From Ailanthus altissimus (taxonomy: Eukaryota > Streptophyta > Magnoliopsida > Sapindales > Simaroubaceae): a stretch of DNA of 64,000 nucleotides. Under the pieces are notes generated by a model, which saw nothing but the letters and a program-made list of their open reading frames with translations, did not search any database and was not told the origin of the DNA. The position numbers and the translations under genes are program-made. Numbering within the stretch: the stretch's first letter is position 1; each line of letters starts with the position of its first letter. The DNA lies in assembly GCA_946807835.1 (NCBI GenBank), contig OX327699.1, positions 3,775,001 to 3,839,000 of the forward strand. The letters run 5' to 3'. This document shows positions 11,236 through 38,911 of the stretch, piece after piece.

Positions 11236-12009
11236 TACAGTAAATAAATAATTCAATTTTAATTTTAATTACGTTAAATATTATAATTCTAATTTTAATT
11301 TCAAATTCAATTTGAATTACAGTAAATGTTATAATTCTAATTCCAATTTCAATTATATTGAAATGTTATAATTTCATTTTCAAATTTAATTTCAATTATG
11401 TAAAATGTTATAATTTCAATTTCAATTTTAATTATGTTATATATGACAATTTTAAATCCAATTTCAATTTCAATTACGTTAAGTGTTATTATTCCAATTA
11501 CAATCTCAATTTATATGACGTTAAATGTTATAATTTTAATTGTAATTTTAATTTTAATTACGTTAAACGTTATAATTTTAATTTTAATTTTGATTTTAAT
11601 TATGCTAAATGCTATAATTGTAATTTCAATTTTATTTATATTAAATGTTATAATTTCAAATCTAATTTCAATTTCAATTACGTTAAAGTTACAATTCCAA
11701 TTTCAATTGTGTTAAATGTTATAATTCTAATTCTAAATTCAATTTCAATTAAATATTAAATGTTATAATTCTAATTTCAATTATAATTCTAATTCTAATT
11801 TTAGTTACATATAATATTATAATTCTAATTTCAATTCTATTTCTAATTTTAATTACATAAAATATTATAATTTCAATTTCAATTACGTTAAATGTTATAA
11901 TTCAAATTCTAAATTCAATTTCAATTTACATTATAGTTATAATTCCAATTCTAATTTCTATTATGTTATCTATTATAATTTCAATTCCAATTAAATGTGA
12001 AATGTTATA
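11236..12009. repeat. AT-rich minisatellite, left part
   Basis: This is an irregular tandem array of a core like 'acgttaaatgttataattc' followed by variable numbers of 'taatttcaat' hexamers. The unit length varies from about 30 to 60 bp. Open frames across it encode only repeated Asn/Phe/Tyr or Ile/Leu/Val strings, so they are repeat translations and not genes. The array continues at 13237-13662 after an inserted element. Confidence 0.85.
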
Positions 12010-13236
12010 AGGGATAAGGTTAATTTTACCCTAATAATTTGAACTAATTGACAACTTTGTCCTAGTTAGAGATAAAATAACTAATTTTAACCTAATCCGT
12101 TAATCTTTATTGTCAATTTGGATGAACATATTAGTTTTAATAGACAATTACTAGTTTACCCTCATTATTTGTCATTTAACTTAGGACACACAGCATAATC
12201 TAACTCGTTCATTGTCATTAAAAACGTGGTATAATCCCATTTGTTCATTTAATTTAACATAATTTTTAAAAAAATTAATAAATATATATTTCTTAATAAA
12301 TATTTTTTAATAAAATGATAGTGTCAAACATTGATTAGTTATAAATTACACGTGTCACCCTATAATTGGACTCCATTTAAGAATATAATTATTAATTAAA
12401 TAAACCTGCCACTGGCGGCTATTTTTCAGCGACGTTTCAACCACAAAAATGACCAAATTTTACATTATTGGACTCTACGTTTCTTAATTTACATAATACA
12501 TGAGTCATTTTTGCAAAAAAAAAAAACCAAATAGGGTGGTGAAGGGCGGCGACCATCGCCATCCACTGTCAAATAGAGGGGCAGTGACTTGCATCGTCCC
12601 TACCTATGGATAGATCGGCAACCGATCTATCCATAGGTGGGGATTGTACAAGTCGCCGCCCCTTTATTTGACGGGGGGCAGCAGTGGCTGCCGTCCCTTA
12701 CCACTAATTTTGACCATCTTCTGATCTTTTTTAGTAAAATAATGACTTCACCGTTGTGTAAATAAAAGAAAATAAAGTCCAATGATGCAAAATATGATTA
12801 TTTATATTGTCAAAAAGTCACCAAAAAATGACCGTCGGTCGCCAACTGTTTTTCTGCGATGGTGGCAGATTATTTTTTAATTATTAATTTTTATTTTATT
12901 TTAAAAATATAAACCAATGATATGTTGATACGTGTCCAAAGTAACTAATCACATTGTGAAAAAAGTGTCATTTTATTAAAATTTATTTTTAAAAATTATA
13001 TTAATTTAAATTAGTATATGAGATTGCATCATGTGTTCAAAAAGATAATAAATTAATAAAATTGAGTCACATGTCCAAAGTGTAAATTATTTATATGATT
13101 ATATTAATTTTTAACCCTTCTACCATTAAAACAAACTACGAAAGTTAACAAACTAAGGTAAAATTGGATATTTTTAATCTACCTAGAGTAAAGTTGTCAA
13201 TTAACCCAAAATATTATGGTAAAATTGTTCTTAATT
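12010..13236. mobile_element. Non-autonomous full-length-palindromic DNA transposon (MULE/foldback type)
   Basis: The two ends are inverted copies: the left has 'ttttaccctaataattt' then 'aattgacaactttgtcctag', and the right end reverse-complemented has 'ttttaccataatatttt' then 'aattgacaactttactctag'. The inverted repeat runs almost to the middle, where CCTATGGATAGATCGG and CCGATCTATCCATAGG face each other across three bases near 12620. Flanks are AATGTTATA (12001-12009) and AATGTTAGA (13237-13245), an 8/9 match that fits a 9-bp Mutator-type target duplication. The host repeat itself contains 'aatgttata', so coincidence cannot be excluded. No transposase is encoded. Confidence 0.75.
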
Positions 13237-13662
13237 AATGTTAGAATTCTAATTTCAATTCTAATTTTAATTACATAAAATAAAATAATTTTAATTTTAG
13301 TTTCAAATACGTTAAATGTTATAATTTCAATTTCAATTTCAATTTTAATTTCAATTATGTTAAACGTTATAATTCTAATTTTAATTTTTAGTTCAATTAC
13401 ATTAAACGTTATAATTCTAATTCTAATTTTTAGTTCAATTACGTTAAACGTTATAATTCTAATTCCAATTTCAATTTCAACTTCAATTACGTTAAATTTT
13501 ATAATTTCATTTCCAATTTCAATTTTAATTTCAATTATATTTAATGTTATAATTCCAATTCTAATTTTATTTTTAATTACATTAAATGTTATAATTTCAA
13601 TTCTAAATTTAAGTTTAATTTTAAAAATGTTAAATGTTATAATTTAAATTTAATTTCAATTT
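13237..13662. repeat. AT-rich minisatellite, right part
   Basis: The same array as 11236-12009 resumes, with 'acgttaaacgttataattc' cores and 'aattccaatttcaat' spacers. It is split from the left part by the 1.2-kb palindromic element. The 96-residue open frame here is a repeat artefact. Confidence 0.85.
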
Positions 13663-14090
13663 CAACAAATCCAAAATTGGATGTTAGAAATATATTTTGG
13701 ACCTGTTATGTATTTTTGCAACAAATCCGTAAATGGAAATTAGAAATATATTTTGAAAATTAGAAATTTGTATGTAAATTATTTATTTTGAAAATTAAAA
13801 TTTTAGATTTGTTATATTTTGAAAATTAAAATTTTGAATGTTAAGATAGTTCAATAAACACCTTGAAAATTAACAAATATTTAAAATATAAAAACACTCC
13901 AAAAAACGTAAAGGTCAAAAGTTAAACCTAACCAAAAACTTTAATTTAGTGCCATTCAAATATTTTGTTATATATTTTTAAATTTAACGTAATTTAAAAT
14001 TTATTTATAATGTTAATAAAACTGTAATATTAATTATTCATGCCATGTGGCGTCCTATGATGGCACTACGTAGTGGACATTATATTAACT
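13663..14090. other. AT-rich spacer, nothing recognised
   Basis: Short internal repeats such as 'gaaatatattttg' and 'gaaaattaaaatttt' occur, but no gene, terminal repeat or domain is visible. Confidence 0.5.
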
Positions 14091-15918
14091 ATGGTTATTT
14101 AATAGAGACTTCCACACATGTTTGTGGGTGAAAAGTGTAAAAAGTGATACGTTAAGTGTGATACAACATACAATAAGTTATGGATGTTTTTTTTTAATTT
14201 AAGTACTTTATATTAACCAAGGTTATTTAAAGTAACCATAAAATATCATCCTTATAATATGTTACATTTCAGTGCAGCTAAATGCAAACTTGTAATTTAA
14301 GTATAAGTGGGGGACATTCTCTTATATTTGTGGGTGAGAGGTGCCAAAAGTGGGAACACATACTACGTTAAGTAGATACAACATACAATAGGTTGTTGAT
14401 GCATTGTTTTTTAATTTAGGTACTTTTATATTAAACATGATTATTTAAGACCTATAAAATATCATCCCATTGTATAATGTTATTAATTGTTTTTGCAGAT
14501 AAATGCAAATTCGTAATTTATAAAAAAAAATGGGAACATGTTACATGACATAAAAGAATGCTATTTTATGGGTATTCTAAATAAGTATATTTTTTATATA
14601 TTTTATAAAAAATAAAATAATTATAAACAACATCATATGTGTTCCTATTTAACATACTACATGTTCTCACTATTTATTATTTTTACTAAGAAAAGTGCCT
14701 ATATTCCTACTTCTATATTTTTAGCGTGTTGTTAGTTATCATTAAAAACTTGTTACATAATATAAGGAGATGCTATTTTATAGGTGTCCTAAACAAATAT
14801 GATTTTTATATATTTTACAAATATAAAAAATAATATAATTACAAATAATATCATGTATGTTCCCACTTAACATACTACATATTCCCATTATTTATTGTTT
14901 TCACCAAGAAAAGTGTCTATATCCCCTATTTTTACATACTTAACACGTTGTTGGTTATCATTTAAAAAATGTTACATAATAAAATGGATGTTATTTTATG
15001 GATATCCTTAATAAGTATTGTTTTTATATAGTTTCTAAAAAATGAAAAATAAAATAATTACAAATAACATCATGTATATTCTCACTTAACATGCTAAATG
15101 TTCTCATTATTTGTTGTTTTCACCAAGAAAAGTGCATATATCCACGCTTTTACATTCTTAGCGCGTTGTTAGTTACTATTAAAAATATGTTACATAATAT
15201 AATAAAATGCTACTTTATGAGTGTCCTAAACAAGTATGGCTTTTTTTTATATATTTCACAAACTATAAAAAATAAAATAATTACAAACAACATCATATAT
15301 ATTCTAACTTAACATACTACATATTTTCACTATTTGTTATTTTCACCAAGAAAAATGCTTATATCTCCACTTCTACATTCTTAGCGCTTTGTCGGTTACC
15401 ATTAAAAATATAGTACATAATAACACCCTTTCATATTTGTGGGTGAGATGTGTAAAAAGTGAGAACACGCCCTAGGTTAGTAGGCTTCAACATACATAAA
15501 CTTTGTGGATGTATTTTTTTATTTATTTTTAATTTTAGGTACTTTTATATTAACCATAGTTATTTAAAACCCTCATAAAATATCATCCCTTTTATTATGT
15601 TACATTTTTGTGTATAGAAAATGTAACTCATAAATTATGATAAAGTAGGAATACTCTCTTATATTTGTGGGTGACAGGTGCAAAAAGTGGAAACACGTCA
15701 TATATTAAGTGAGATACAACATAAAAAAAGTTGTGAATGTAATTTTTTTATTTAGGTACTTTGTACTAACCGTGGTTATTTACGACATCCATAAAATATC
15801 ATCTCTTCTAATATGCTACATTTCTGGTGCAACTAAATGCAAAATCAAAATTTTTGAAAAAGTGATAACACCCTCTTATATTGTGGGTGAAATGTACAAA
15901 AAGTGGAAACACATTCTT
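14091..15918. repeat. ~220-bp repeat array with both orientations (2-3 forward, 4 inverted, 2-3 forward)
   Basis: Forward units are marked by 'tttgtgggtga' at ~14121, ~14328, ~15437, ~15663 and ~15881. Inverted units carry the complementary-side marker 'ttttcaccaagaaaa' at ~14684, ~14904, ~15121 and ~15343. Spacing is 207-226 bp. The inverted class aligns with the reverse complement of the forward class across most of the unit: 'atattataaggatgatatttta' types against 'ataataaaatggatgttatttta' types. No product is encoded. It ends where the LTR copy at 15919 begins. Confidence 0.7.
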
Positions 15919-17060
15919 GTTAGGAATAATGCTTATGTGTTATTCAAATTGTTGTATGAATGTTTATTTATATAATATTTATACAATAACCATTTTTTTA
16001 TTCGTCAATTATTATTATTTATATGGTAAGAAGTTTGTAACTTTTTAGACATAATAGATCCAAAAGAATTTATATTTAATCTAAAAAAGTCTAGGTCAGT
16101 GCTAAAAGTTAGCACTTCTAAAATGTTAGAACCTTATATGAAACAAAGACAAAGACCGAGAATATTATAGTAATAACATAGTTATAAAGGAGTTATAAAT
16201 GATGCTAAGAAATGTTATTGCGCAATATGCTATCTAAAATATCATTCCTGATCCATGGTTATTGACATGGGTCGATCGGTATTCCTTGCAGATCAGTATA
16301 TGTCCATATCTGAACTATTCAGATGGTTAGTCTTAGCAGACCATGGGCTTAGTGGAAGTCCGTATAGGCACACAGGTATTCAGTAAGGACTGGGTACTGA
16401 ATAGACCCAATAGGACCTCTAATAGACATCCCATGAAGCCACTAATAGAGAGTCTTTTTGAGTTGAGTAGTATTCTTGATCCTTTAACATGAGCGCCGCA
16501 ATGGGCTTGTGAGTGATCCATTATACTTTAGTTCCACTTATGTCAGAGACCTTTCATGGTCTGATCGCTGGGTATGATGCGATGCTCATAGAGTCTGGTG
16601 TGCGTAGATATGGGATCCGTCAGCTCATATAGGTTAGTTGTATATCTTGATACTCCAAGATAGTATTTTAGGAAGTCTTATGGCTATAAGAAAAAACTCC
16701 AAAAAATATTTTTTTCGTAATGTTAAAAAATATCACAAATGAATTTATGGATATTATTTATGAAAAGATTTGACAGTCATAATCAATATCTTTACTCTTG
16801 CAGGATATAGATGACAGAGGGATTATACGGATATGGTTAACCTCAACTTGTATGGTTTAATGCTTCGTTTTGTAATATTCGTAACATATATGTGGAACAT
16901 TATTCATGGACTTGAAAAAATGTTCCATAAGACAATTAGAGGTGAATTTAGAGAGTCTCACAATATAAAGTATACTTATTGAGCACAAAGGTAACGGGAC
17001 AGATTGTACGGATCGATTTGGGAAGGTTTCAAAAAGTATGATACATTTTAAGACCAATCT
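15919..17060 (+). mobile_element. 5' portion of another LTR of the 5709 family
   Basis: It begins TGTTAGGAATAATGCTTATG, matching the start of the 5709 LTR (TGTTATAATTGGTGCTTACG). The match continues through the 'tcagtgctaaaagttagca' block, the 'ctttcatggtctgatcgctg' block and the 'acaatataaagtatact' block near 16960. After about 17010 the similarity fades. No polypurine tract lies directly before it, so I cannot say that it is the 3' LTR of the element starting at 5709. Confidence 0.6.
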
Positions 17061-17239
17061 AGAAAGTGGTAAACATAATTTGCAAATATTATAAACAGGT
17101 TCCTATTACATGGAAAAGTGTAAATGCACACATAACATCTATGCATAGCCATTTGTGTGACAAAATGGCAGCATGTTGATAAACGTAAATTATATCTATT
17201 ATTTTCATTCTCTTAACTTAATTAATTGCTCATTTTAAT

Positions 17240-18553
17240 AAAAATATGAGGTTTTTTATATGTTTAATTATTATTTTATAGGTTTGGAGTCAATGGAGTA
17301 ATAAGGGATAAAAATCTAAGAAAAATAAGGCAAAACATCAAATTGCTACAATACATGCTACAGTGATTCGCTACAGTATTCTATAAACAGTGATTTACTA
17401 TAGTTCCTGCTGAAGCGGTGAACAAGTATATCGCCCCAATGAAGTTCCAGAGCCTTAGACCCCAAAGCTTTTCGCTCCAACAGTGAGCAGTCACGCGTAT
17501 ACAGTAACGTGTGAATAGTATACAGAATAGTACCCATAACAGTTCTGGTGAACAGTAGTCGCACTACAGTAAAAAAAGAAGTACAACTCAAATACTCTAA
17601 TTAATCCCTATATAAAGGCTTCTTATTTCATAACTTAGAAGACATAACTTAGGGTTCTTAATGCCACAACACATTGAAGAAGAGCAATTTTTAGAGAGAG
17701 AAACAAGAAAAATTCAAGGAAGTAAAAGATTATTGACAAATCTTTGGCTTATCAACCAACTGCGAATTGACATCTATATTGGTTTGCTTTTGGTTGTATC
17801 ATATTTATTTTATTTTTTAACCCTAAATTTTTTGTTATCATGAGCTAAATTTATTTTTTAGGGTTATTACTTAAACTCAATATGAGAGCTTAAGTTTTTG
17901 ATATTTTTAATATTTATTTGAACTCAATTCTTCATTATTCAAATTATTTGTTCTTAATACTTCATTATATCTGATCAATATTGTGATTGATTTAGTAATA
18001 CTTTGATAAACTCGAAAGAGGCATAATTGTATTTAGACCTAGATAGTTTGATGCATGATTGTAGAGTAACATTCAATATTACATATGCAAGTTTCGAATT
18101 AGGATAGGAATAAACCTAATTGACATGTATGGTCAATAAGACTTGTTCTTAATGAATCTTAATTTATTACTAGTACCATAGGAATATAGGTATTTGATAA
18201 ATTATGATATACTTGCATGATCTTGGGAGAGGCTTATGAATATATTAGTGTCTTGACCAATAATAAGAATTGAGGGATATAAATATTAAAAGGATTAATC
18301 TTTAAAAAATATATTGAATGATAGTAATTAACGTTAGGCTTTTTCTATATTACTATCTTCTTATTTTATTTGAATTGTGTTATTTATTTTCTGCACTTTT
18401 ATTTTACTTAAAGTTATTGCAAAATTAAGATTTTATTTTTCTGAATAATTATAAGAAAGATATGATTTTAGTATTTGGTAAAAAAATAAAAATTATCCTT
18501 GTGGATTCAATATCCGACTTCATAAGTCCCTTTATTAATAGTGTATACTTACA
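17240..18553 (+). mobile_element. Possible Ty3/gypsy solo LTR
   Basis: It contains clustered 'ctacagt' motifs near 17358-17400, a TATA-like 'ctatataaaggc' at 17608, an AT-rich R/U5-like tail, and a terminal 'tgtggattcaatatccgac' then 'cttaca' near 18553. The tail resembles the LTR ends of Athila/Tat-type elements, which are normally followed by an Asp-tRNA primer site. None is present here. Boundaries and class are uncertain. A 60-residue frame at 17661-17843 inside it has no recognisable domain. Confidence 0.35.
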
Positions 18554-18555
18554 CT

Positions 18556-19212
18556 TAATTTTAAGATATAAAAAAATCGCATCACATGAATGGATATGCA
18601 TGTGACAAATGTCAACCATGCAAAATGTTTATATCGACGAGTGACATTTGTCACTCATGCATAGTATTACATGGCAACACATACCTTAATAATAGACATG
18701 TGGCCACTTAAGAAGTTTAGACTTCTTATAACAAATTAAATGAGTTTCATTTGTAAAGAGAGTGAATTAAGAATTTAAAAATTCATGCAAAACGAAAGAG
18801 AGAAAATGCAATTTTCAAAATGTTACATTTAGGTTCCCAAAACACATTTTATGAACTTTGTGCTTAAACCAATTCAAGAGTTGAGTTAATTGTTGATTAC
18901 TGTACGAAATTAAGATCAAAAGCTACTATTTTAGCTGCTCCAATCCTATTAGCTATCGAAGTCTATAATTGTTTAAGGGTGGATTTCATTATGAGCTCAA
19001 CAAGTTTCAAAAATCAACAATCTTCTCTAAATCGTCTACAAAGTTATGTGTTTGATTCTTTTATTGTTACAGTTCACTACTGGTGTGTATATATTGCAAA
19101 TTGTATGTAAATCTTATGCGTAATGTATGATTGTCATGTATTTGAGAAATTTTTTAACATGTACACAATCACATGCATGCATCATAAAATATGTTAACAG
19201 TCCTACCATTTT
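18556..19212 (+). mobile_element. LTR-like fragment, probably the 3' part of the 15919 copy
   Basis: The segment with 'gacaaatgtc'/'gacatttgtc' inverted motifs, the 'atcaaaagctacta' block near 18916 and the '..catgta..catgcat' end resembles 820-1470. That corresponds to the downstream half of the Copia LTR family. If so, 17060-18555 was inserted into the LTR. The similarity is patchy. Confidence 0.35.
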
Positions 19213-21589
19213 GACCTCATCAATTCAAATTAAAATGTGCTTTACAATACTAACTACTATACTTTTATTTTCATTTCTATTTTTCTATTGACATTAGTCT
19301 ATTGAATTTGGGCCATTTGGAGAATCAAGAAAATGCCAGAAGGATTATATATATATATATATTTTGATTTACATGAGTTGTATGTCTTTTATATGCTTCT
19401 CTCTCAATTTATACTGCAAATGTCTATGCTTTCAAGAGAGGATACGATTGAACATTGATTTTGTAATTACTTTCGTATACAAGCAGTGTAACTCTGCTAG
19501 AACACAATCAAAAATTGGTATTCTTGATTTGCGCATTTCAAACAAGTAAGGTTCTTTTCTCTAGACTACAAAATTTTTGTAAGATAGAATTCTTAGATAC
19601 ACAATTAGAAGAAGGGTTTCTATAAGTTGCAAGATAATACATCTTCATTAGAAGCAAAATCGTGTCTTATAGTATGGAAACTATATTGGCCCATTTTAAT
19701 TTAGCTAATTAAATTGCAGCAATTGTGCTTTAGTGAACTTGCAAAATAATTGCAATAATACATTATGCATCACTGTTATGATACTTGAAAACTCCAAGAA
19801 ATCTTAGATAATTGCAGACAATTCAAAAATTCGTGATACCTTTCCTTTGGAGAATAGTTGTCAAAGCTTGAATTTCTCTTTTTTTTACCTCATCAATTCA
19901 AATTAAGATGTGGTTTACAATCCTAACTACTATATTTTTATTTTTATCTCTATTTTTCTATTGACATTAGTCTACTGAATTTGGGCCATTTGGAGAATCG
20001 AGAAAATGCCAGAGGGCTTTTATATATATCTCAATTTACTTGAATTGTATGTATTTTATATACTTCTCTCGATTTATACTGCCATTTTCTATGCTTTTAG
20101 GAGAAGATAAGATTGAACATTAATTTTGTAATTACTTTCGTATACAAGCAGTGTAACTCTGCTAGAATACAATAAAAAATCAGTATTCTTGATTTGCACA
20201 TTTCAAACAAGTAAGGTTCTTTTCTCTAAACTACGAAGTTTTTGTAAGATAGAATTCTTAGATACACAATTAGAAGAAGGGTTTCTATAAGTTGCAAGAT
20301 AGTACATCTTTGTTAGAAGCAAAATCGTGTCTTATAGTATGGAAACTATATTGGCCCATTTTAATTTAGCTAATTAAATTGCAGTGATTGTGCTTTAGTT
20401 AACTTGCAAAACAATTGCAATGATACATTATGCATCACTGTTATGATACTTGAAAACTCTAAGAAATCTTTCAGACAATTGCAGACAATTCAAAAATTGG
20501 TGATACATTTTCTTTTAAGAACAGTTGTCAAAGATTAGCAGTGATAATCTTTAGTTAATAAAGCTTGAATTTCTCTCTTTTTGACCTCATCAATTCAAAT
20601 CAAGATGAGTTTTACTATAATAACTATGTTTCATTTATTTTAATTCCCTTTTTCTTGTTGACTTTAGTTTATTGAATTTGGCCCATTTGGAGAGCGAAGA
20701 AATTGCAATAGGACATTCATATATTTCTTAATTTATATGAATTGCATGTCTTTTATATGGTTCTCTCGATTTATGCTACAAATTTCTATGCTTTCAAGAG
20801 AGGACAAGATTAAGTATTGATTCTATAATTACTTCCGTATACAACCATTGTAACTCTCTTAGAACAAGATCAAGTATAAGCATATTTAATTTTCACATGT
20901 CAAAGAAGTAAGGTTTTTTACTCTAGACTCGTAATATTTGTAAGTTAGAAGCCTTAGATACACAATTAGAAGAAGGTTTTCTATAAGTTGCTAAATATTA
21001 CATCTTGCATTAGAAGAAAAATCTTGTCTTATTGGTACGGTAGCTTTATTTGCCAATTTTAATTTAGCTAATTAAATTGCACCGACTATGCTTCAGTTAA
21101 CATGCAAAACAATTACAATGATACATTATGCATCACTGTTATGATACTTGAAAACTCCAAGAAATCTTTCATACAATTAGAGACAATTCAACAATTAGTG
21201 ATACTTATCTTTTTTTTAAATAGTTGTCAAAAATTGGTAGTGATAATCTTTAGTCGATGAATCTTCAATTTCTGTCTTTTTGACCTCATCAATTCAAAAT
21301 AAGATGAGTTTTTCAATCATAACTACTTTATTTTTTTATTTTAATTCCTTTTTTTCTTTTAACATTAGTCTACTAAATTTGGCCTATTTGGAGAACAAAC
21401 AAATGCTAGAGGACTTTTATATATTTCTTGATTTATATGAATTGCATATCCTTTATATGCTTCTCTCTCGATATATGCTACAAAATTTCTACACTTTCAG
21501 GATAGGACAAGATTGAGCATTGATTTTGTAATTACTTTTGAATACAAGCAGTGTAACTCTGCTAGAATTCTTGGATCTACAATTAGAAG

Positions 21590-22873
21590 TATGATGAGCA
21601 CAATAAAATGCATATTTATTAAGAGATTCAGTCATTATTTAATGTCACTAATTTTAGCATTTTTTTATTTTGTAACTTGAAATAAAGTGTTGTCCTTAAA
21701 TTGTGATTAATGAATGTTATTTGCATAGATTTAGTAAAATAAACGTAACTCTCAATGTAAAAATTAAAATAAAGGAATTCTGGAACCTGGAGTAACATGA
21801 CTCAATCTTACACAAACTTAAAGAACAATTGAAAAGTTGAATCCAATATTTTATAGGCCAAATTGCGATACAACATAACTAGATTATAACTTTCGCTCAG
21901 CTTGACCCACCTCACGTATTTGGACTGTATTTCACAAAATACGTACCCAATCACTATGATTCTTGAAGCTAGAAAATTATTAAAGATTGAAGTCACACTA
22001 AACATGTTCCATTCATTGTCTATATAAGGACACCCTTAGGAGGCTAATGGATGTTTTTTCAACGCTTTATAATTCTCTCATATAATTCTATTTATCATGC
22101 ATTGTAAGCTAGGCCAGAGTTTCTAGTAAGGCTAAAGATGAACTTTTATATGTAATAAATTTACTTTTAGACATTGATTCTTTGTCAAGAGCTACAAATG
22201 TTTGTAAGTTTGCTTATGTCTAAACTCTTATCTATTATTTTTATATAATCTAGAGCTTATAGTTCTCATTTTTCACATATTTTCAGCCATGCTTTCTTAT
22301 GTGATTCTTGTTGAATTATAATTATTATTGGTTACATTATTTTACAAGTTAATATTTTACTGTAATATTGTCAATCGATATATTGTTGATCTTAGATAAT
22401 ATGTAAAGACAATAATTGTTTGATATTCAAGTTAATTTTTTACTGTAAAATTGTCAAAATGATATATTATCGATCTTAGATAACTTGTATAAATGAACAT
22501 GGTTTGTGATAAAGTGCAAAGAGTTTAGTCATATCAAATACACATATTATCAAATATGCCATATTTTATATATCTTCCGATTAATTGTTTGGGATGTGAA
22601 ACTTTCAATTGAGATATAAACATTGAATCAAAGTATATAATATATTTACTAAGCATAATTATAATTCTCAAAGCCTTGCTTACATCATCATAAGACTTCT
22701 CCCTAGATACATACACAATTCTATCTCAACTACATAAACTAATTAGTTAATTTTTTCCTTTGTTGCTGTTTTAATATTTTTATTTCGCTAACCTATTTTA
22801 CCAAAAGTTTTCTCATAGGATTGACACATCAATCTACACTGCAATAGTCGCATTATATTTTGAGTGTAAACAA
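21590..22873 (+). mobile_element. Solo LTR inserted in the fourth array unit
   Basis: It interrupts the repeat unit between 'caattagaag' and 'agaaggtttt'. The pentamer AGAAG is present on both sides (21585-21589 and 22874-22878), as expected for a 5-bp LTR-element target duplication. The insert begins near TGATGAGCAC and ends near GTAAACA. A TATA-like 'ctatataaggacac' lies at ~22020. No gag-pol is present, so it is a solo LTR of about 1.28 kb, probably Ty3/gypsy. It is younger than the array. Confidence 0.65.
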
Positions 22874-23404
22874 AGAAGGTTTTATGTAAGTTGCTAGATA
22901 ATATATCTTGCATTAAAAGCAAAATCTTGTCATATAGGTATGACAGCTTTATTTGCCCATTTTAATTTAGCTAATTAAATTGCAGCAACTATGCTTCAGT
23001 TAACTTGCCAAATAATTGCAATGATACATTATGCATCACTATTATGATACTTGAAACTCCAAGAAATCTTTTATACAATTACAGACAATTCAAAAGTTGG
23101 TGATACCTTTCCTTTTCAGAACAGTTGTCAAAGGTTGGTAGTGATAATATTTAGTCAATGAAGCTTCAATTTCTCTTTTTTTGACCTCATCAATTCAAAT
23201 TAAGGCGAGTTTTACTATCATAACTATAGTATTTTTATTTTTATTCTTGTTTTTCTATTGACATTAGTCTGTTGAATTTGGCCCATTTGGAGAACCAAGA
23301 AAATGCCATAGGAGTTTTATATATTTCTCAATTTACATGAATTTCATATCTTTTATATGCTTCTCTCTCTATTTATGCTGCAAATTTCTATGCTTTCAGG
23401 AGAG

Positions 23405-23697
23405 TACATGATAGGGGCGTAAAAGCACTAGTATAATTTGTACTCAACGTTAGTATTTTCCTCCAAATCATGAATTTTTTACTGCTTAACTGTGTTTTTT
23501 TTATTATAAATAGGTGCATGATGAAAACTTTAATATATAGAAATAAACAGGAGGTGAATCGGATGTAAAATAAAGAAATTGCGCTCAAAATATGAGAGCG
23601 CCTTATCAGGCCTGAACCGTGGCGCCCACAACCCAGCACCGCCGCGCCCAGTGATGCTTTTTAAAGTTGTGTTTCCAGGTCTTGGCACCGTGAATCT
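23405..23697. mobile_element. Insertion/replacement inside the fifth array unit, with GC-rich LTR-like motif
   Basis: Within the unit starting at 23183, segment A stops after 'ttcaggagag'. The unit resumes inside segment B at 'tatgcatcactatt' (~23703). The intervening ~290 bp carry 'gagcgcc', 'ggcgccc' and 'gccgcgccc' motifs like those in the Copia LTRs at 30510 and 62690. It is therefore probably an LTR fragment. Part of the unit was deleted. Confidence 0.5.
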
Positions 23698-26600
23698 ATT
23701 TATAATTATGCATCACTATTATGATGGTTGAAAACTCCAAGAAATCTTTCATACAATTGGAGACAATTCAAAAATTGGTGAACTTTTCCTTTTAAGAACA
23801 GTTGTCAAAAAGTTGTTACTAATAATGTTTAGTCGATGAAGCTTCAATTTCTCTCTTTTTGACCTCATCAATTTCAAATTAAGATGACTTGTACTATCAT
23901 AACTACTTTATATTTAATTTAATTGCCATTTTTCCATTGACATTAGTCTATTGAATTTGCCCATTTTGAGAATCAAGAAATCGCAAGAGGACATTTATAT
24001 ATTTCTCGAATTATATGAATTGCATATCTTTTATATGTTTCTCTCTCGATTTATGCTAGAAATGTCTATGCTTTCAGGAGAGGAAAAGATTGAACATTGA
24101 TTCTATAATTACTTCCGTATACAACCATTGTAACTCTATTATAGCACAATCAAGAATCAGCATTTTTAATTTGCACATTTCAAACAAGGTTGTTTACTTT
24201 AGACTACGGATTTTTTTGTAAGTTAGATGCCTTGGATACACACTTAGAAGAAAGTTTTCTGTAAGTTGCTAGATAATACATCTTGCATTAGAAATAAATT
24301 CTTGTCTTACAGGCATGGCAGCTTTATTTGCCCATTTTAATTTACCTAATTAAATTGCAAGGATTATGCTTCCGTTAACTTGCAAAACAATTGCAATGAT
24401 ACATTATGCATAACTGTTATGAAACTTGAAAACTCCAAGAAATATTTCATACAATTGGAGACAATTCAAAAATTGGTGATACTTTTCCTTTTGAGAACAT
24501 TTACAATGGTTGGTTTAATCAATGAAACTTGAATTTCTCCTTTTTTGACCTCATCAATCCAAATTAAGACGAGTTTTACTATCATAACTACTTTATACTT
24601 ATTTTAATTTCCTTTTTTTTTAACATTAGTCTATTGAATTTTGCCCATTTGGAGAACCAAGAAATCGCAAGAGGATATTTATATATTTCTCGATTTACCT
24701 AAATTGCATATCTTTTATATGCTTCTCTCTCAATTTATGCTGCAAATTTCTATACAATCATTGTAACTCTCTTAGAATAAGATCAAGAATCAGTATTTTT
24801 AATTTGCACATTTCAAAGAAGTAACATTGTTTACTCTATACTACGGAGTTTTTGTAACTTAGAAGCCTTAGATATACCATTAGAATAAGGTTTTCAATAA
24901 GTTGCTAGATAATACATCTTGCATTAGTAGCAAAACCTTTTCTAATAGGTATGGCATCTTTATTTTATCATTTTAATTTAGCTAATTAAATTATAAGGAC
25001 TGTGCTTCAGTTAACTTGCAAAACAATTGCAATGATACATTATGCATAACTGTTATGATACTTGAAAACTCCAAGAAATCTTAAAAACAATTGTTGACAA
25101 TTCAAAAATTAGTTATACCTTTCCTTTTGAAAACAATTGTCAAAAGTTGGTAGTGATAATCATTAGTTGATGAAGTTTCAATTTCTCTCTTTTTGACCTC
25201 ATCAAGTCAAATTAAGATGAGTTCTACCATCATAGCTACTTTATATTTATTTTAATTCCCCTTTTTCTATTGACATTAATCTATTGAATTTGGCTCATTT
25301 AGAGAACCAAGAAACTGCAAAAGAACTTTTATATATTTCTCTATTTACATGAATTGTATATCTTTATATTCTTTTCTCTCAATTTATGCTGCAAATTTCT
25401 ATGCTTTCTCTTAGAACGGATTTAAGAATCAGCATATTTTATTTGCACATTTGAAACAAGTGAGGTTCTTTGCTCCAGACTACAAAATTTTTATAAGTTA
25501 CAAGCATTGGATACACAATTGGAAAAAGGTTTTCTGTAAGTTGCTAGATAATACATCTTGCATTAGAAGCAAAAGCTTGTCTTATAGGTATGGAAGCTTT
25601 ATTTGCCCATTTTTATTCAGCTAATTAAATTGCAGCAACTGTGCTTCTGTTAACTTGAAAAATAATTGCAATGATACATTATGCATAATTGTTATGATAC
25701 TTGAAATCTCCAAAAATTCTTTCACACAATTATAGAGAATGCAAAAATTAGTTCCGTCTTTCTTTTTTATTACAATTGTAAAAAATGGTAATGATAATCT
25801 TTAGTCGATGAAGCTTTAATTTCTCTTTTTGACCACATCAATTCAAATTAAGATGAGTTTTACTATCAAAACTACTTTATATTCCATTTTTTTCTTAGCA
25901 TTCCTCTATTGAATTAGGATTATTTGGAGAACCAAAAAACCGCAAGAAGACTTTTATATATTTCTATATTTACATGAATTGCATATGTTTTATATTCTTC
26001 TCTCTCGATTTATGCTGCAAATTTCTATGCTTTGAGGTGAGGACAAGATTGAGTATTGATTCTGTAATTACTTCCGTCTACAACCATTGTAACTCTCTTA
26101 GAAAAGAATCAAGAATAAGCATATTTAATTTTCACATGTCAAAGAAGTAAGGTTCTTTACTCTAGACTCAGAAATTTTGTAAGTTAGAAGCCTTGAATAC
26201 ATAATTAGAACAAGGATTTCTATAAGTTGCAAGATAATACATCTTGCATTAGAAGCAAAATCTTGTCTTAAGGTATGACAACTTTATTTCTTCATTTTAA
26301 TTTAGCTAATTAAATTGTAGGGTCTGTTCTTTAGTTAATTTACAAAACAATTGCAATGATATAGTATGCATCACTATTATGATACTTGAAAACACCAAGA
26401 AATCTTTCACAAAATTGCAAACAATTCAAAAATTAGTGATACCTTTTCTTTTGAGGACAATTGTCAAAGGTTGGTAGTGATGATTTTTAGTCAATGAAGC
26501 TTACATTTCTCTCTTTTTGACCTCATCAATTCAAATTATGATGAGTTTTACTATCATAACTACTTTGTATTTATTTTAATTCCTATTTTTATGGTCACAT

Positions 26601-28470
26601 TGGTCTATTGAATTTGGCACATTTGGAGAACCAAGAAACCGCAAGAGGACTTTTATATATTTCTCTATTTACATGAATTGCATATCTTTTATACTTTTCT
26701 CTCTCAATTTATGCTGTAAATTTCTATTCTTTGAGGAGAGGACAAGATTGAGCATTAATACTGTAATTACTTCGGTTTATAACCATTGTAACTCTCTTAG
26801 CATAAAATCAAGAATAAGCATATTTAAATTTCACATGTCAAAAAAGTAAGGTTCTTTGCTATAGACTCAAAAGTTTTGTAAGTTAAAAGCCTTGGATACA
26901 CAATTAGAACAAGGTCTTCTATAAGTTGCTTGATTATACATCTTGCGTTAAAAGCAAAATCTTGTCTTATAAGTATGATAACTTTATTTCCCTATGTTAT
27001 TTTAGATAATTAAATTGTAAGGTCTATGCTTCAATTAACTTGTAAAATAATTGCAATGATACAGTATACATCACTGTTATGATACTTGAAAACTCCAAGA
27101 AATCTTTCACACAATTGCTGACAATTAAAAACTTGGTGATACCTTTCCTTTTTAGGACAGTTGGCAAAGGTTGGTAGCGATAATTTCTAGTTAATGAAGC
27201 TTTAATTTCTCTCTTTTTGACCTCATCAATTCAAATTAAGATGAGTTTTACATTCATAACTACTTTATATTTATTTTAATTCCCTACATTCTGTTCACAT
27301 TGGTCTATTGAATTTGGCCCGTTAGGAGAACTAAGAAACTACAAGAGGACGTTTATATATTTCTCGATTTACATCAATTGCATATCTTTTATATGCTTCT
27401 CTATCGGTTTATGCTATAAATTTCTTTACTTTTAGGAGATGACAAGATTGACCATTGATTCTGTAATTTATTCCATATACAACCATTGTAACTCTCATAA
27501 AACAGAATCAAGAATCAGCATTTTTAATTTGCACATGTCAAACATGAAAGGTTCTTTGCTCTAGACTACGAAATTTTGTAAGTTAGAAGCATCGGATACA
27601 TAATTAGAAGAAGTTTTTCTATAAGTTGCTAGATAATACATTTTGCATTAGAAGCAAAATCTTGTCTTATAAGTATAGCAGCTTTATTTGCCCATTTTAA
27701 TTTAGCTAATTAAATTGTAGGGACTGTGCTTCAATTAACTTGTAAAATGACTTTTATATATTTTTCGATTTAAGTGAATTGTGTACCTTTTATATGCTTC
27801 TCCCTTTATTTATGTTGCAAATTTCTATGTTTGCAGACGAGGACAAGATTGAGCATTGATTCTGTAAATACATTCGTATACAACCATTATAACACTCTTA
27901 GAATAGAATCAAGAATCAATATTTTAATTTGCACATTTAAAATGGGTAAGGTGGTTTACTCTAGACTATAAAACTTTTGTAAGTTAGAAGCCTTGGATAC
28001 ATAATTAAAAGAAGGTTTTCTATAAATTGCTAGATACTACATTTTGCGTTAGAAGCAAAATAATTTCTTATAGATATAGCAGCTTTATTTACCCATTTTA
28101 ATTTAGCTAATTAAATTGTAGGGATTGTGCTTCAATTAACTTATAAAATGACTTTTATATATTTTTCGATTTAAGTGAATTGTGTACCTTTTATATGCTT
28201 CTCCCTTTATTTATACTACAAATTTCTATGTTTGCAGACGAGGACAAAATTGAGCATTGATTCTGTAAATACATTCATATACAACCATTATAACACTCTT
28301 AAAACAAAATCAAGAATCAATATTTTAATTTACACATTTAAAATGGGTAAGGTGATTTACTCTAGACTATAAAACTTTTGTAAGTTAGAAGCCTTGCACT
28401 GTGATTCTTTTTTTTTCTTGACCATCTCTAATAACTCATAGCAGATCTTTATATGCAATTGTAATTGCAG

Positions 28471-28620
28471 AATTTGAAGTCAGCAATATCTGACACTGGC
28501 GACACCATGCTTCCTGAACACTTGCTTCTTGTTGCAAACACTCTGTCAGCTACAGAAGAGTTTGTCGGTTTAAATGCAGAAGGCATAGCACAACAAAGGG
28601 AACATGCATCTGTTAGTTCC
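28471..28620 (+). pseudogene. Exon fragment of RNA polymerase IV largest subunit (NRPD1-like)
   Basis: After a good acceptor ('gtaattgcag', 28461-28470) an open segment of 50 codons reads 'LPEHLLLVANTLSATEEFVG' then 'LNAEGIAQQREHASVSS'. This matches the conserved C-terminal region of plant NRPD1 (Pol IV largest subunit), where the family normally continues SSPF..ACFSNPG. Here the match stops at 'agttcc' and runs into 'tgtgcccctttattttttt', so the exon is cut short. Fragments 'NPGA' and 'DVLAWE' near 28732-28775 may be a broken continuation. It sits directly after the array at 19213-28390, whose exon segments belong upstream in the same gene family. It is a pseudogene fragment; I see no promoter, start or domain needed for catalysis. 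Confidence 0.7.
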
Positions 28621-28679
28621 TGTGCCCCTTTATTTTTTTTTTTTTTGGATACCTTGATTATCATATTAAATAAGGTTTA

Positions 28680-30349
28680 ATTGATGTTTTAGTTTCCGAC
28701 GATGCATCAAGTTTCCGACGATGTTACAGAATCCTGGCGCTAGCTCAAGAGGATTATAGATGTTTTAGCATGGGAAAGGTTGATGGAAAGTTATCGTTAT
28801 AATATTTGAAGTGAAATAAAAAAAAAAAAAAAATTTAATTTTTATTTTTATTAGATAAAAATATTTTTTATTTAAGTATCTTATAAATATATAAATTTGA
28901 TATTAAAAAAAATAAAATTAATAAGAATATACTTTGAATTTACGTCGAATTTTTTTTTATCAAAAGATTTTAAATCAAACCTCTTATTCTACAGTAATAA
29001 GAAGAGTGAGTTTCGAATTTTTTCTTATCTAAAGAAGAATACATATCCTACGTTTTTATCACGTATATCTTTTGTATTTTTATTTAAACTAACCTTCTTA
29101 TTTTAAAATATTAATTTAATTAATAATATTTACTAATTAAATTATTATCTCATAAAAAGAGATTTAATTCATGTAAACCACATAAAGTCCCACTCTTTGT
29201 GGTTAACATATAATACATAACACTTGAGCATTATTAGCCTTTTAATAAAAAAAATTAAAATTAAAATTAAAATCTTTTTAATAATTTCAAAAATTATCTT
29301 TAAGATTTTATTTATTTAATTTTTTAAATTAAATATTTAATTATATTTAGATAAGATCTTATCTATATTAATTCATTCTTAATTAATTAATTTTATCCAA
29401 ATTTAAAATATACGTATTTAAAAACGATTTTCTGGACACAAACAATTTGTGTAATAATACAATCCTTTTTAATTGTTTACTGTAATAATAAAAAAGATGG
29501 TATTGGAGACCTATAGACCTACAATTTCAAGCTCTAATAAATAAGGTTTAATTAATTAATTCAATTTATTAATTTCAGTGTTATTCTACTAAAAATCTGG
29601 AATTGCACTCTTGAAATTATAGATATAATTTACTCAGAAAACTTAGAGCAGTCTATTGATTTAATCACTACATGCAATTTAACCCTCCATAGATGGTTCA
29701 TAATTAGAGCTAGATCAATTACCGTTTTACCTCTTTAATTATTTATTTATCCTTAAGTACCATTAATTCACCAGTGAATAATTAATTTGTAATATTATTA
29801 CAAATTGAGCGCTCTAACCGCTCAGTTCTAGAACTAACCCTTAAGAGAACCTTCTTTCTAACTTCTATTAGGAATAAATGAATTCTATATCTATAAATTA
29901 TATTCTCAACCGTTTATCTCACTATACCACTAAAATACAAGTTTCTAGTATGTTCTTTACACAAACTGTAACGAGTATTTCAAATGACATAATGACACAA
30001 ACATGAGTTTATGATCACTTAGGATTAAAGTTAATTTGCATATGATCATTGGTTGATGTTATTTGAATTCTTAATTAACAACTGTATTTTACATAAGAAT
30101 TCAAACTACATCTAGTCAGTCCTATATAATCATATTATATATAGTATCTCCACCATAATGTCACTACATTAGTGATTTGGATAAGATCACTATATTTTAA
30201 ATGTCTGTGGACCGCACTACTAATATTTACTTAAAGATCCCAAACTTTAATTAATTTATTATAGACTTTTCTGTTTATTATCTATAACTTTAATCCTCTT
30301 GTATATAACAATTATATACTAAAGTGTTAAAAAAATTGGGATTCAACAA
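28680..30349 (-). mobile_element. LTR-retrotransposon LTR sequence on the minus strand
   Basis: Read on the minus strand the segment starts TGTTGAATCCCAATTTT at about 30347, a typical LTR start. It continues through AT-rich U3-like DNA with 'tggtggagatactatata' and 'gagataaacggttgag' blocks to about 28800. No gag-pol is seen. A T-tract and an A-tract lie at 28625 and 28818. The far end is not defined. Confidence 0.4.
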
Positions 30350-31213
30350 TCTTGGTTGGATAAGAATTAAGATGAATACTAAAGTGGAGAGTCACAAGAA
30401 GTCTAGAACGTGTGGGACACGTATGGAGAAGTCTAGGATAAGTGGGACACGAATGGGGAAGTGAAACGGGACTCAAAGACGCAAAGGAAGCGAAAAAAAT
30501 GCAAGTTGAGCCACTAGGACTGAGCGCCTCGGCGCCCATGGCTGAGCGCTGCAGCGCCCAGGACAGCAACCCAGCGCCGCAGCGTTAGGTCCTCAGCGCT
30601 GTGGCGATGGGCGCGATAATGCCCAGCTCTGCGACACTCAGAGACGAGCGTCGCGGTGACAAACGCACCAAAAGTTTATTTTCCATCCGAATTTTGAGTT
30701 TTGAGAAGTTTTAGACTTCCAAAACAAGTAGACTCTTACTCTAATAAAGAATAGAGTTAGTAGGCACGAAATACACTCTATATAAACACTTGTAAACCCT
30801 TTAGTTGAGATTAACTATTAAGAGAGACTCCAAGAGAGGGAAAGAACTGGGTAGACACTAAGTGCTTGTGTGCGCTAGAGTGGAACCGTCGTTTGGGTGA
30901 TCATTGTTCATGGTAGAGTAAGGGTTTACTAAACGTTAATTTCTTTTGAGAGTTCTTTATTGGATTTTCTTTGTAAAATCTCTAAGGAGTTAATAAAAGA
31001 GGTTAGGATCCTTGTATCAATCGTAGACGTAGGCAAATGGCCGAACTATATACGATTGTGTTGTACTCTTTTATATTCTACTTTGGATTCTTGTTATTTT
31101 TGCTTGATTAACAGGTTATCCGCTGCGCAAAGAGGTTAGGGTTCTAGGTTGAACTTGAAGTTCTTCGCTTCAACATAACCTCAAGATATAGAAGAGTGTT
31201 TCCTCCCTCAACA
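30350..31213 (+). mobile_element. Copia LTR
   Basis: It ends 'cctccctcaaca' at 31213, directly before a primer site. A TATA box 'ctctatataaac' is at 30777. The U3 region at 30510-30660 holds repeated 'agcgcctcggcgccc'-like GC motifs. The 5' boundary is uncertain by some tens of bases because it abuts the minus-strand LTR. Confidence 0.6.
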
Positions 31214-31216
31214 AAC

Positions 31217-31228
31217 TGGTATCAAAGC
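31217..31228 (+). promoter_or_regulatory. Copia primer-binding site
   Basis: TGGTATCAAAGC lies a few bases after the LTR end. It is a one-base variant of the common tRNA-Met primer site of plant Copia elements, and it fixes the plus orientation of this element. Confidence 0.75.
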
Positions 31229-31269
31229 TAAAGGTTTGATAACACACACTTGGGGTATTTAAACCGTGG

Positions 31270-31690
31270 CTGCAATCAAGTAAGAATTAGAGAAGTTCAA
31301 TGGGATGAATGACTTCAATCTTTGGAGAAAGAAGGTTAGAATTCTACTAGTGAAGGAAGGGCTAGACTCAGCTTTAGAGGAAGCTAGCTCCTCAACTAGC
31401 CCTCAACTAGCGATGAGACGACAACCTCAAAGTCTGGGCAGAAAGATTAGGACACAATTCAGAAAAAGACTCACAACACTTTATTCTTGGCGTTGAGCGA
31501 CAAAGTATTAAGGGAAGTTGGTAATGAAGAAATCGTTTTTGGGCTATAGAAGAGACTCGAGGCATTGTACATGAAGAAGTCTCTTGCAAATAGATTTTTT
31601 GTGAAAAATAAACTATATCAGCTAACAATGCACGAGGAAACTTTATTGAGAACCCATATTGATGAGTTTAACAAAATCATCATAATAAAT
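31270..31690 (+). pseudogene. Truncated Copia gag
   Basis: The translated frames give 'KFNGMNDFNLWRKKVRILLV' then 'KEGLDSALEEAS', the N-terminal gag signature of Copia elements (F.G.N..LW...M..LL...L..AL). After a frame change comes 'LSLSDKVLREVGNEEIVFG', then 'LYMKKSLANRFFVKNKL' and 'THIDEFNKI'. These are all in the normal gag order and cover roughly the first 130 residues. A stop precedes the start, and frameshifts occur near 31480-31560. The similarity ends at ~31690 in AT-rich DNA. Zinc knuckle, protease, integrase and RT are missing, so the element is a 5' fragment. Confidence 0.8.
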
Positions 31691-32640
31691 AAATTCAAAT
31701 AATTATTAAAATCTAAAAATAACAAAATATGAAATAAAATAAAATTTAATATATAAAATTAAAACTAATAAAATAATAAATATTAATGACAGAAAAATTA
31801 AAATATTGACTAAATTAAACAATTTAAGCACATTTTTTATATTTACAATTAAATAAAAATTAAATAAACTAACTAAATAAATTTTTTAAATTTTTTTAAA
31901 AAAAGCCAAGTGGCACCATGCGTGTGTATGTTGCGTCACCAAAGCGCGTGCGACGCGTGGTTTCATGAGTCACGTACGTGAACAAAACATCATAAATTTA
32001 AACATTTCAATAACTATAATACAAAAAGAACACAAAAGCACAACAAAATTAAATTTATAATAAAAATTTACTAATTTTTTTTTATATAATTTTATAATAG
32101 GTTGATTTACTTCAATTCTTTAAAATATTATGACTTTAAAGTTGATTTACAAATTTTTAAATAAAATATTATAATGACAGAGAAAATGAGAGAATTTTAG
32201 AGAGTTTGAGTTTTGAACAAAATTTTAAAAAGGGGTAAATGGGCATATTTTTTGTTCTTTAGTTAATATATTTTAATAATTATGACTGAGGTCAAAATTT
32301 ACTTAGCATCCTTTTGGGGGGGGGGGGGGTGGGGGGGGGGTTCAAAAAGGCAAATTTTCCGGTAACCTTTTTTTTCTAAGTGAAAACGTGGTTTTTTATT
32401 ATTAAAAGTGTAGTGAAATGATCACAGTCCCTGTAACACACAAACGTGTCTATAAAAAGAGAACAGTAAGTGTAAAGCCAAAAGTTAATCCTAATGCACT
32501 TAATGTTCTCATCTCATTTTGTAATATAAAAATATTAATATGATGATTTGATATAAAGATCTGGAATGACGTAGACAACTTTTATTTTGTATTTTTTTTT
32601 TTATCTTCTTGATTCTATGAATTCTTTTTATAAATTAGAA
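31691..32640. other. AT-rich intergenic DNA with a GC patch and a G-run
   Basis: Mostly A/T simple sequence. A GC-rich patch at 31905-31980 ('gcgcgtgcgacgcgtgg') resembles the centre of the foldback at 32894 and may be another MITE core. A G14-T-G10 run lies at 32316-32340. No gene is seen. Confidence 0.5.
32316..32340 (+). repeat. G14-T-G10 homopolymer tract
   Basis: Fourteen G, one T and ten G in a row. The tract can form a G-quadruplex on the plus strand. Exact length may be unreliable because sequencing through such runs is error-prone. Confidence 0.85.
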
Positions 32641-36130: not shown

Positions 36131-38911
36131 TGTAATATTCAATCTCTATTAGTCATATTGGCGCCTAAATTTCGGTATAGAGTAATAAAGACACTATAGG
36201 GTTATCCGATTTTAACCCTGTTAGAAATATTTTCTTTATGGTGCGCGTGAGAGATATTAGACCTAATTTGATAATTTCACACTTGATCGAAGCGTCGAAC
36301 GACCCTAGAATATTTTTGAAAATTTTCTCTATTGACTTGGAAAAGGAAATTCTAATTTACTATATGAATTTTCATTTAAGGGTTATGTATGGAACAAGCT
36401 TTTGTTGAGAAATACAATCAATATATTAAAGAATGGATCAATTAGAAGCAATCTCATGGATTGCCAAGTTGAGAATTCTAGTTAGTTCATTTGACTATTT
36501 TAACTAGATAGTTACAAATGAACCAATTAAATCTTTCCATTTGAACTAATGGCAAATTAGGAATTTTGAGTAAGTTGAAGGGCAAAACGGTCAATTGAGG
36601 GAGCACTATATATATGTTGGAAGTGTGTAGAATTTTCAAGAGATCAAAAGCAAACATTTAGAGCAAAAGAGAGCAAAATTCGTGTAAGTGTTAAAGGTGC
36701 TGCTATAGTGAAATTTCAGTTTCTTTTTCATGATTTTTCATGCTTAATCAAGCTAAAATAAGGTTACATACCAATCCCTAAACTCAATTGAAGCCTCCAT
36801 TAGTGAAAATTCAAGAAAAAGAGGTAAGAAAAGCATTGTTTGTGAAATTTATAAGCGAGCTTTTAAGATTACTTTAATTGATGTTCTTGTGTGTATTCTT
36901 GGTTTAGATTGAGTTGAATTCTAGTGTGGAGCTTGAAGGAGTCATTAATTTGAAGAAATTGGCAAGTTAAGAATTAGAGTTTTGGGTGATTTGAATGTAG
37001 AGACTTTTAATTGGTTGTATTTAGGGCATTAGAATGAAATTGGCTTGATTTTGATGTAATTGGAACAAGAAATGGAGAAAAGAAATGTGTTGGAACATAG
37101 GGTAAAATTCTGCCACTTTAGGAAAGTTAGGGATTGAGTAGTGTTTTGATTGAGTTGTTGTGTGTAAATGGTGCATATTGTAAATTGAATATATATGATT
37201 GATGAAAAAATCAAAAATGAAGAAAATGAGACATAATTGTCCATTTTAGAAAGGTGAAGGGCAATTATGTCCAATCAAGTTATAAGGTGTTTAATAATTT
37301 TCAAGGCGCTAGGTAGTGAGTTAGATTAAATTAAATGACTCCGTAAATAAAAATCAGAAAGTAGTATGCATCCAGGCTTTGAATGCCGATTAGGGCGTTT
37401 AGTAGTTAAATAAGATTCTAGTATTCGATTTGGTTCTAATGTCATTTATGGCGCGTAAGTGAAGAAAATCGAGAGCGGTAACGGGAGCTAAAATCTGGAA
37501 CGAAATTGAGTGCGGAGCGGTTGTGAGTGAAAATTTGTTTTTCTGTTATCTTTCGTTTATTATGTTTTCGCATAATGAAAATGTATGTTTTATGAGCTTT
37601 CAATGCATAAATATGATTTATGATCTTGATATGTATCCATAGATATGCATTTACATGTTCGGTTTAAGAAACAGTTTTAAAATTTCTGCATTTATTTTAA
37701 AGGCCATTGGTACCCTCAGATTATAGTGGTGGTGATTGTATTAGACCCGGCCGGTATATCCTGTGCACATGGACAGGTCTTGGGGTGTGTCACTAACTCC
37801 GAAAAGTCAGGATGACGAGTCATGTGAGTCGCTCTATTTGTACGGGGTATTGTCTCGCTATATGTATGTGATGTAGGATTCCTCTGCATAGCCAGTGAGA
37901 TGTCTTGAGATGTCATTGTGGGTGTCGCTAGTTGAGGTGCCCCGTGACCTACTCACATGTGCGGTGCTAGTTGAGTCGCTACGTGAGTATAGAGCTTTAG
38001 GATTACCATTGGTACAGTTTAGAAAGACAATGGCCGAGCGAGGACTTTACTATTTTTCGATTTATCGATAGCATTTATGCGTTTATATGCACACGACAGT
38101 TATTATGTTATACAGATTTTGGATATTGCTTTCCAAAGATGTAGATAAAATTTGTTTGGCGAGATTTTATCGGCATATGATATTAGAAACCGTTTTACAA
38201 CTTTACATCAGTTTTAGAAGTATGATTTATGCATGTACTTTAGAATTTGCTATCTATGCATAATGTTATTTTATTTGAAATCTTAATTGCACTCACTGAG
38301 CTCCTTTAGCTCACTCGTTTTGTGTTTTATATTTTCTAAACCCTTCCCGAGTGCAGGTCTCGGTACACAAGCTACTGATTCTCCTATTGCCGAGTAGTGG
38401 GCCAAATCTGAAGATCATTTTTGTATATGTAAATGTGCTAAATAGCACCCTTTACTTTATGCATAGTAGTTGTAGGCATGTATATTTGTATATATGTTTT
38501 GAACCAACAAGAAGAGATTTCGATATTATGATGATCGTTTTTGCTTTTTATGAGTATACTTATTTTGTGATTCAAATAAAACTATTGAGTTGTGTTGGAT
38601 TTGATTTGGAAAGGATCGGAGGTCCGAATTGGTAGTATTGAGAAGTGTTTGAAATAGAAGTGAAATTTCTTTGCAGGTTTTATATGAATTTTTTGAAAAA
38701 TAGAGGAAACTCTGCTCGTTTTTTTTAAAAAAAATTAAGATGTCATTTTTATGTATATTACAAGATTTTCTCAATAATAGCAAGAACTAAAAAGGGGTTC
38801 GCCTCGCAAAAATTTCTCAACTTACCTAATTATATTATGAGGAACTTCTATCGAGGTGTTCAGTAGGATTGCTGGGACTTACAATAGAGGATCTCAGAAC
38901 AGGTCTTGTCA
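36131..38911 (+). mobile_element. ~2.78-kb solo LTR (probable Ty3/gypsy), copy 1, forward
   Basis: It starts TGTAATATTCAATC and ends GGTCTTGTCA. It is flanked by CTCAC (36126-36130) and CTCAT (38912-38916), a 4/5 target duplication. The whole element aligns in reverse complement with 52683-55438, and the shared central block includes 'gacccggccggtatatcc' near 37745. A TATA-like 'actatatatatg' is at 36607. No primer site or gag-pol is present at either end, so it is a solo LTR. Many differences from copy 2 are C-to-T or G-to-A. Small open frames inside (for example near 38351) are unremarkable. Confidence 0.8.

Follow-up and report, generated by a model that had tools for sequence, protein, structure and literature searches.

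Why a stretch of plant DNA should carry, one behind the other, about 13 pieces of a gene of the silencing machinery itself is the question raised by a locus of Ailanthus altissimus (assembly GCA_946807835.1, contig OX327699.1, positions 3,775,001 to 3,839,000). The gene, NRPD1, codes for the largest subunit of RNA polymerase IV (Pol IV), with which small-RNA gene silencing starts in plants. The window is the whole 64-kb stretch analysed, positions are counted from its first nucleotide, and C14, C17 and C26 are chromosome labels in the 939-Mb genome, the array being on C17. Our findings suggest that the array is very probably an ectopic fragment of NRPD1, copied at the DNA level, amplified in tandem and decayed, which makes no working protein and most likely has no function for the plant.

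The tandem array and its units

The self-comparison of the window, proposed as a check by a first-pass annotation of this DNA, and a search with one unit revealed a direct tandem array at 19209-28396 on the + strand, with E-values in the self-comparison down to 0.0, far past chance. With the unit at 26510-27201 as query, blastn placed 16 pieces of the window in the interval 19209-28396; every one is on the + strand, and identity to the query is 77.7-88.3%, the query itself excluded. This confirms the first-pass count of about 12-13 direct copies of a ~690-bp unit: there are ~13, the last ones of ~400 bp, each holding two NRPD1 exons (A and B) with introns. After merging across insertions, there remain about 10 units at a ~690-bp pitch and two at ~400 bp, with partial units at either end; at E <= 1e-3, the window contains 15 pieces of exon A and 12 of exon B. 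The features are as follows.

19209-28396, + strand: whole tandem array of exon A, intron, exon B, intron units (self-comparison, blastn, alignment to genes)
19209-19340, + strand: partial unit at the 5' end, made up of the intron that follows exon B (blastn, tblastn, alignment)
19341-20008, + strand: unit u01, sister of u02 (alignment, tree)
20009-20705, + strand: unit u02 (alignment, tree)
20706-21403, + strand: unit u03 (alignment)
21404-23308, + strand: one unit (u04a + u05b), interrupted by a solo-LTR-like insert (alignment)
21590-22873, - strand: solo-LTR-like insert, 1,284 bp (5-bp target-site duplication, relatives near the C14 and C26 genes)
23309-23986, + strand: one unit (u06a + u07b) with filler at 23413-23704 in its middle (blastn, alignment)
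23987-24669, + strand: unit u08 (alignment)
24670-25318, + strand: unit u09, exon A truncated (alignment)
25319-25945, + strand: unit u10, exon A truncated (alignment)
25946-26644, + strand: unit u11, in which alone the four splice dinucleotides AG/GT/AG/GT are all kept (alignment, splice-site check)
26645-27344, + strand: unit u12, sister of u11 (alignment, tree)
27345-28396, + strand: units u13 and u14, spaced at about 400 bp and with exon B ending after 27 bp, followed by partial unit u15 (blastn, alignment)
28471-28611, + strand: piece of NRPD1 exon D, lacking, by eye, about 33 bp at the 3' end (91% protein identity to C14, 85% to C26)
28691-28780, + strand: what is left of the following NRPD1 exon (E), which has an internal deletion and is where NRPD1 similarity ends (DNA comparison, limits by eye)

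Alignment with the two NRPD1 genes of the same genome gives the order within a unit as intron end, exon A (110 bp), short intron, exon B (149 bp) and ~200 bp of the next intron. The 12 exon B starts, one of which was extrapolated in the filler-bearing unit, follow each other at 665, 696, 1903, 678, 697, 638, 637, 687, 700, 698 and 401 bp; the pitch of 1903 is due to the long terminal repeat (LTR)-like insert inside that unit, and the last two full units are ~400 bp long because exon B is cut. The filler, 292 bp of unrelated DNA, replaces the middle of its unit. The clearer NRPD1-like exon that had been noted beside the end of the array is real: exon D adjoins the array, with the exon E remnant behind it, and the exon between the array and exon D has been lost. 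Upstream of the 5' partial unit nothing NRPD1-like was found within the window by tblastn and blastn, and an Rfam scan of 17000-32000 gave nothing at the gathering score.

The insert is 81-83% identical, in reversed orientation, to a 1.56-kb element that lies about 25 kb away from NRPD1 on C14, and two relatives lie near the C26 gene. It is bounded by a 5-bp target-site duplication, either AGAAG exactly or AAGTA/AAGAA if its ends are TG..CA. Since the C14 relative shows TG..CA ends and a 5-bp duplication of its own (by eye), the insert is taken for a solo LTR.

The exons are those of NRPD1 and the parent genes lie elsewhere

The first-pass annotation likened segment B to the largest subunit of Pol IV/V, a likeness that was upheld and narrowed here. 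In a protein search akin to the one that it had proposed, run with the parent-gene stretch that holds them, segments A and B match NRPD1, and the alignment of the unit to intact NRPD1 identified exons A and B plus their flanking introns. A 359-residue joined stretch of the parent gene with exons A, B, D and E reached 424 bits with residues 908-1268 of Arabidopsis NRPD1 and 114 bits with NRPE1, there being no Pol II chain among its five matches; for the large exon of the C14 gene the scores were 787 and 206 bits, respectively. Judged by these scores, segments A and B are NRPD1 specifically, beyond a mere 'Pol IV/V' assignment. The closest relatives, among 120 matches listed of 443, are three proteins without a name, from Xanthoceras, Acer and Pistacia, with 76-77% identity; the matches listed next, from Citrus and others, bear the name DNA-directed RNA polymerase IV subunit 1.

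In tblastn, the Xanthoceras relative (1464 residues) is covered from residue 1 to 1446 on C14 and from 1 to 1449 on C26, with the exons in order, so that the two NRPD1 genes are apparently full-length in the sense of ordered, mostly open exons. The same protein finds exon A at seven and exon B at seven places of the array (E <= 0.01), and in the window it covers exons A, B and D only, the remnant of E being visible in the DNA. Elsewhere in the genome, the 47-residue exon at 28471-28611 is matched twice, on C14 and on C26; by itself it gave no Pfam match at E <= 1. The full exon set and the catalytic part that a functional NRPD1 paralogue would carry are thus not present: the window has A, B and D plus a fragment of E.

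The DNA of the unit has 22 matches genome-wide, 16 of them on C17, in the array, and three in each NRPD1 gene, and it was found at no other genomic site in this search, which skips very common words. This distribution, C17 and two NRPD1 genes only, is not that of a dispersed satellite family with its many sites. When the whole NRPD1 protein was searched against the genome (32 of 77 candidates scored), C17 yielded exon D alone, and the large exon at NRPD1-level identity (79-80%) was reported on C14 and C26 only, not on C17. The regions compared on C14 (140 kb) and C26 (120 kb) are collinear in blocks that extend across about 100 kb, and the two genes look like homeologs. No collinearity was found between the 64-kb window and either region, and the matches of the window to them outside the array mostly hit several places and so resemble dispersed repeats. 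The array is ectopic relative to the NRPD1 genes.

Two further observations concern the polymerase genes. The C14 gene contains about 5 kb between two exon blocks (C14, about 22668372-22673467) that are absent from the C26 gene. Equal-scoring RNA polymerase matches occur at C24:6363602-6363955, on a chromosome-sized contig, and at C37:25019-25372, on a 135-kb contig; our guess is that they are perhaps plastid DNA in the nucleus.

Origin, amplification and decay

The introns between and around exons A and B align to both NRPD1 genes, and this retention of introns implies copying at the DNA level, supporting the earlier proposal against retrotransposition. Kept introns also characterize duplicated, non-processed pseudogenes; in rice, most pseudogenes come from gene duplications (PMC2708354). 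Like such plant pseudogenes, the array is an intron-bearing, decayed partial copy of a functional gene; unlike them, an internal two-exon block has been multiplied about 13-fold in tandem. Its source is one of the two NRPD1 genes or their ancestor. Nine bp at the start of exon A, present in C14 and C26 and aligning gap-free to Arabidopsis, are missing in 11 of 11 spanning units, and ~104-bp and 11-bp intron differences from the genes are each common to 11 of 11 units. Given these shared differences, the array most likely goes back to a single, already altered founder.

We propose the following course of events. An internal piece of NRPD1 (intron, exon A, intron, exon B, intron, exons D and E) was copied at the DNA level and came to lie at an unrelated site on a different chromosome, where a ~690-bp block inside the moved piece was duplicated head-to-tail, probably first via a short GAAT microhomology. 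At the unit junction, ...TTTACTTGAAT is joined to GAATTGTATATC..., and GAAT is common to both in the gene (by eye); it could have made the first duplication. Unequal exchange would then have multiplied the block, apparently in a single burst, and the unit tree (14 rows, no outgroup) has a star-like shape, in which three of 11 inner branches are well supported and u01/u02 and u11/u12 form neighbour pairs. Thereafter the copies decayed as a pseudogene array, largely without selection, into what is most likely an ordinary repeat, possibly silenced, that does nothing else for the plant. The Kimura two-parameter distance (K2P) between units has a mean of 0.186 (range 0.128-0.251), whereas C14 and C26 differ less over the matching stretch (0.144); the array is therefore probably old, unequal rates being possible, and 'old' is as far as the dating goes.

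Decay is evident in splice sites, frame and constraint. The splice-site-like borders and consistent phase that the first-pass annotation had described stand for the parent genes; among the units, only 25946-26644 keeps all four dinucleotides. By our reading of the alignment, exon B is free of stops in four of nine full copies, two of the four with length changes (neutral expectation 0.35 each). The ratio of nonsynonymous to synonymous rates (dN/dS) is 0.99 for exon A and 0.60 for exon B between units, 1.99 and 0.72 between units and C14, and 0.49 between C14 and C26 for both exons combined; the copies are related, not independent, which makes the stop counts weak evidence. Between-unit divergence is 0.192 in exon A, 0.156 in exon B and 0.163 in introns. 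Largely neutral decay seems to fit these sequences best.

Some observations weigh against the history proposed above. The dN/dS of exon B between units is below that of exon A, and exon A is stop-free in eight of nine full copies, where neutral substitution would lead to an expectation of 0.51 each; both hint at a possible weak constraint on the exons. The tree sets the two genes beside u01, u02 and u05b (support 87/97, no outgroup), not outside the units. This placement would fit a root on the genes, the tree not demonstrating the units as one clade, and for that reason it is the shared deletions that support a single founder. The genome-wide protein search missed the array's own exons A and B, so its silence on small decayed exons of C17 is weak evidence. 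Finally, nothing that could have carried the piece here turned up in the 25 longest of 132 inverted pairs, and Helitron ends were not properly covered.

Alternative explanations and surroundings

Pack-MULEs or Helitrons capture gene fragments, and a transposon of this or a similar kind may have captured the NRPD1 piece and brought it here. The array resembles such captures as an intron-bearing, internal gene fragment at a foreign site, without the neighbours of the parent genes, and other mobile-element pieces are nearby. It differs from them in being tandem at one place, not dispersed, only one copy of the fragment having been found outside the genes. Moreover, the 25 inverted pairs, taken from 15500-31000, are 26-48 nt long, 70-85% complementary and mostly A+T-rich, and include no element ends and no convincing terminal inverted repeats bracketing the array; we consider capture rather unlikely. 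A third NRPD1 gene from whole-genome duplication, mostly deleted since, would account for the order in which exons A, B and D and a portion of E lie at the locus. Against this stand the lack of collinearity between the 64-kb window and the C14 and C26 regions, which are mutually collinear, and the large exon not reported on C17 with 32 of 77 candidates scored, and such a relic is disfavoured as highly improbable. Tandem repeats are a classic trouble spot for assembly, and an assembler might have expanded one or few units. Copies invented in this way would be near-identical, whereas the units differ by K2P 0.13-0.25, and unit-specific deletions, the solo-LTR-like insert and the filler are present. 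This divergence and the unit-specific insertions speak strongly against an artefact, to which we attach next to no credence.

A protein-coding repeat was also considered. Exons A and B together measure 259 bp, not a multiple of three, and a spliced multi-unit transcript would therefore shift frame at each unit, so that no repeat protein is expected; for this and for the mostly broken frames or splice sites it was rejected.

The array might instead be a trans-acting small-RNA locus, transcribed into small interfering RNAs (siRNAs) that match NRPD1 and lower or methylate the Pol IV gene, so that the silencing machinery would feed back on itself. Perfect gene matches long enough for siRNAs exist for exons B and D, not for A. 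The array contains 39 of 126 24-mers of C14 exon B and 10 of 154 of C14 exon D, and 3 of 126 and 12 of 154 of the C26 counterparts, with none of the parent-exon 24-mers on the same strand in the rest of the window. Exon A shares with either gene 0 of 99 21-mers and 0 of 96 24-mers. All copies are direct, which leaves no built-in hairpin precursor, and a constraint keeping the match to the genes is not evident. Precedents exist in two reports: some rice pseudogenes potentially yield antisense siRNAs (PMC2708354), and truncated FOLT2 copies of Arabidopsis thaliana silence FOLT1 via siRNAs and RNA-directed DNA methylation (PMC8042742). As in FOLT2, the copies here are ectopic and truncated and the intact gene lies elsewhere; siRNA output is documented there, whereas the array is known from sequence alone, its parent encodes a Pol IV subunit itself, and its copies are K2P 0.13-0.25 apart. 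Small RNAs from the array may possibly act on NRPD1; a trans-acting locus is nevertheless, in our judgement, improbable, and more doubtful still is the particular form in which the array, transcribed by Pol IV, self-targets the silencing machinery with 24-nt siRNAs matching exons B and D of both genes and so tunes Pol IV dosage.

A methylation footprint in the units is not claimed. Two initial counts looked strong: a first polarised one (transitions in CG context 0.45, CHG 0.315 and CHH 0.145 vs A-to-G 0.036) and one against the units' own majority (ratios of 8.4, 9.7 and 4.2). A matched symmetric comparison with the genes' introns gave no clear support, with CHG transitions of 0.346 between units vs 0.18 between the introns (5.2 vs 4.1 when scaled by A/T transversions), and scaled CG (5.1 vs 7.8) and CHH (2.0 vs 2.4) not above the introns.

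The decayed, amplified NRPD1 fragment that we favour is unusual in content and ordinary in kind. Judged by titles and the starts of abstracts, no such NRPD1 array was met in the literature, which is not proof of its absence in print; the accessible part of an olive study on Pol IV/V reports pseudogenes for Pol II subunits and no such array (PMC10815247). If inert, the locus is a clear case of an intragenic exon-intron block turning into a local tandem repeat and then decaying, with both parent genes available for comparison. If small RNAs are made, it would be, if true, a natural feedback loop on Pol IV.

Exons of a TOD1/MUCI70 glycosyltransferase occur in the window at 44569-48273 (Pfam PF04765, E 7e-27 and 2e-37), the gene perhaps starting from 40142, and the array therefore lies in a gene-bearing region. 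This MUCI70-like gene is flanked by a ~2.8-kb inverted pair of 86% identity (36131-38911 and 52683-55438). Ty1/copia-type fragments at 60468-62058 and 31550-31699 include reverse transcriptase pieces above the cut-off, with weak pieces of integrase and gag below it. Short A+T-rich tandem repeats of AATTTC type are located at 11252-12010 and 13237-13670, and likewise near the C14 NRPD1 gene, and a 218-bp tandem repeat of about four copies extends over 14538-15423.

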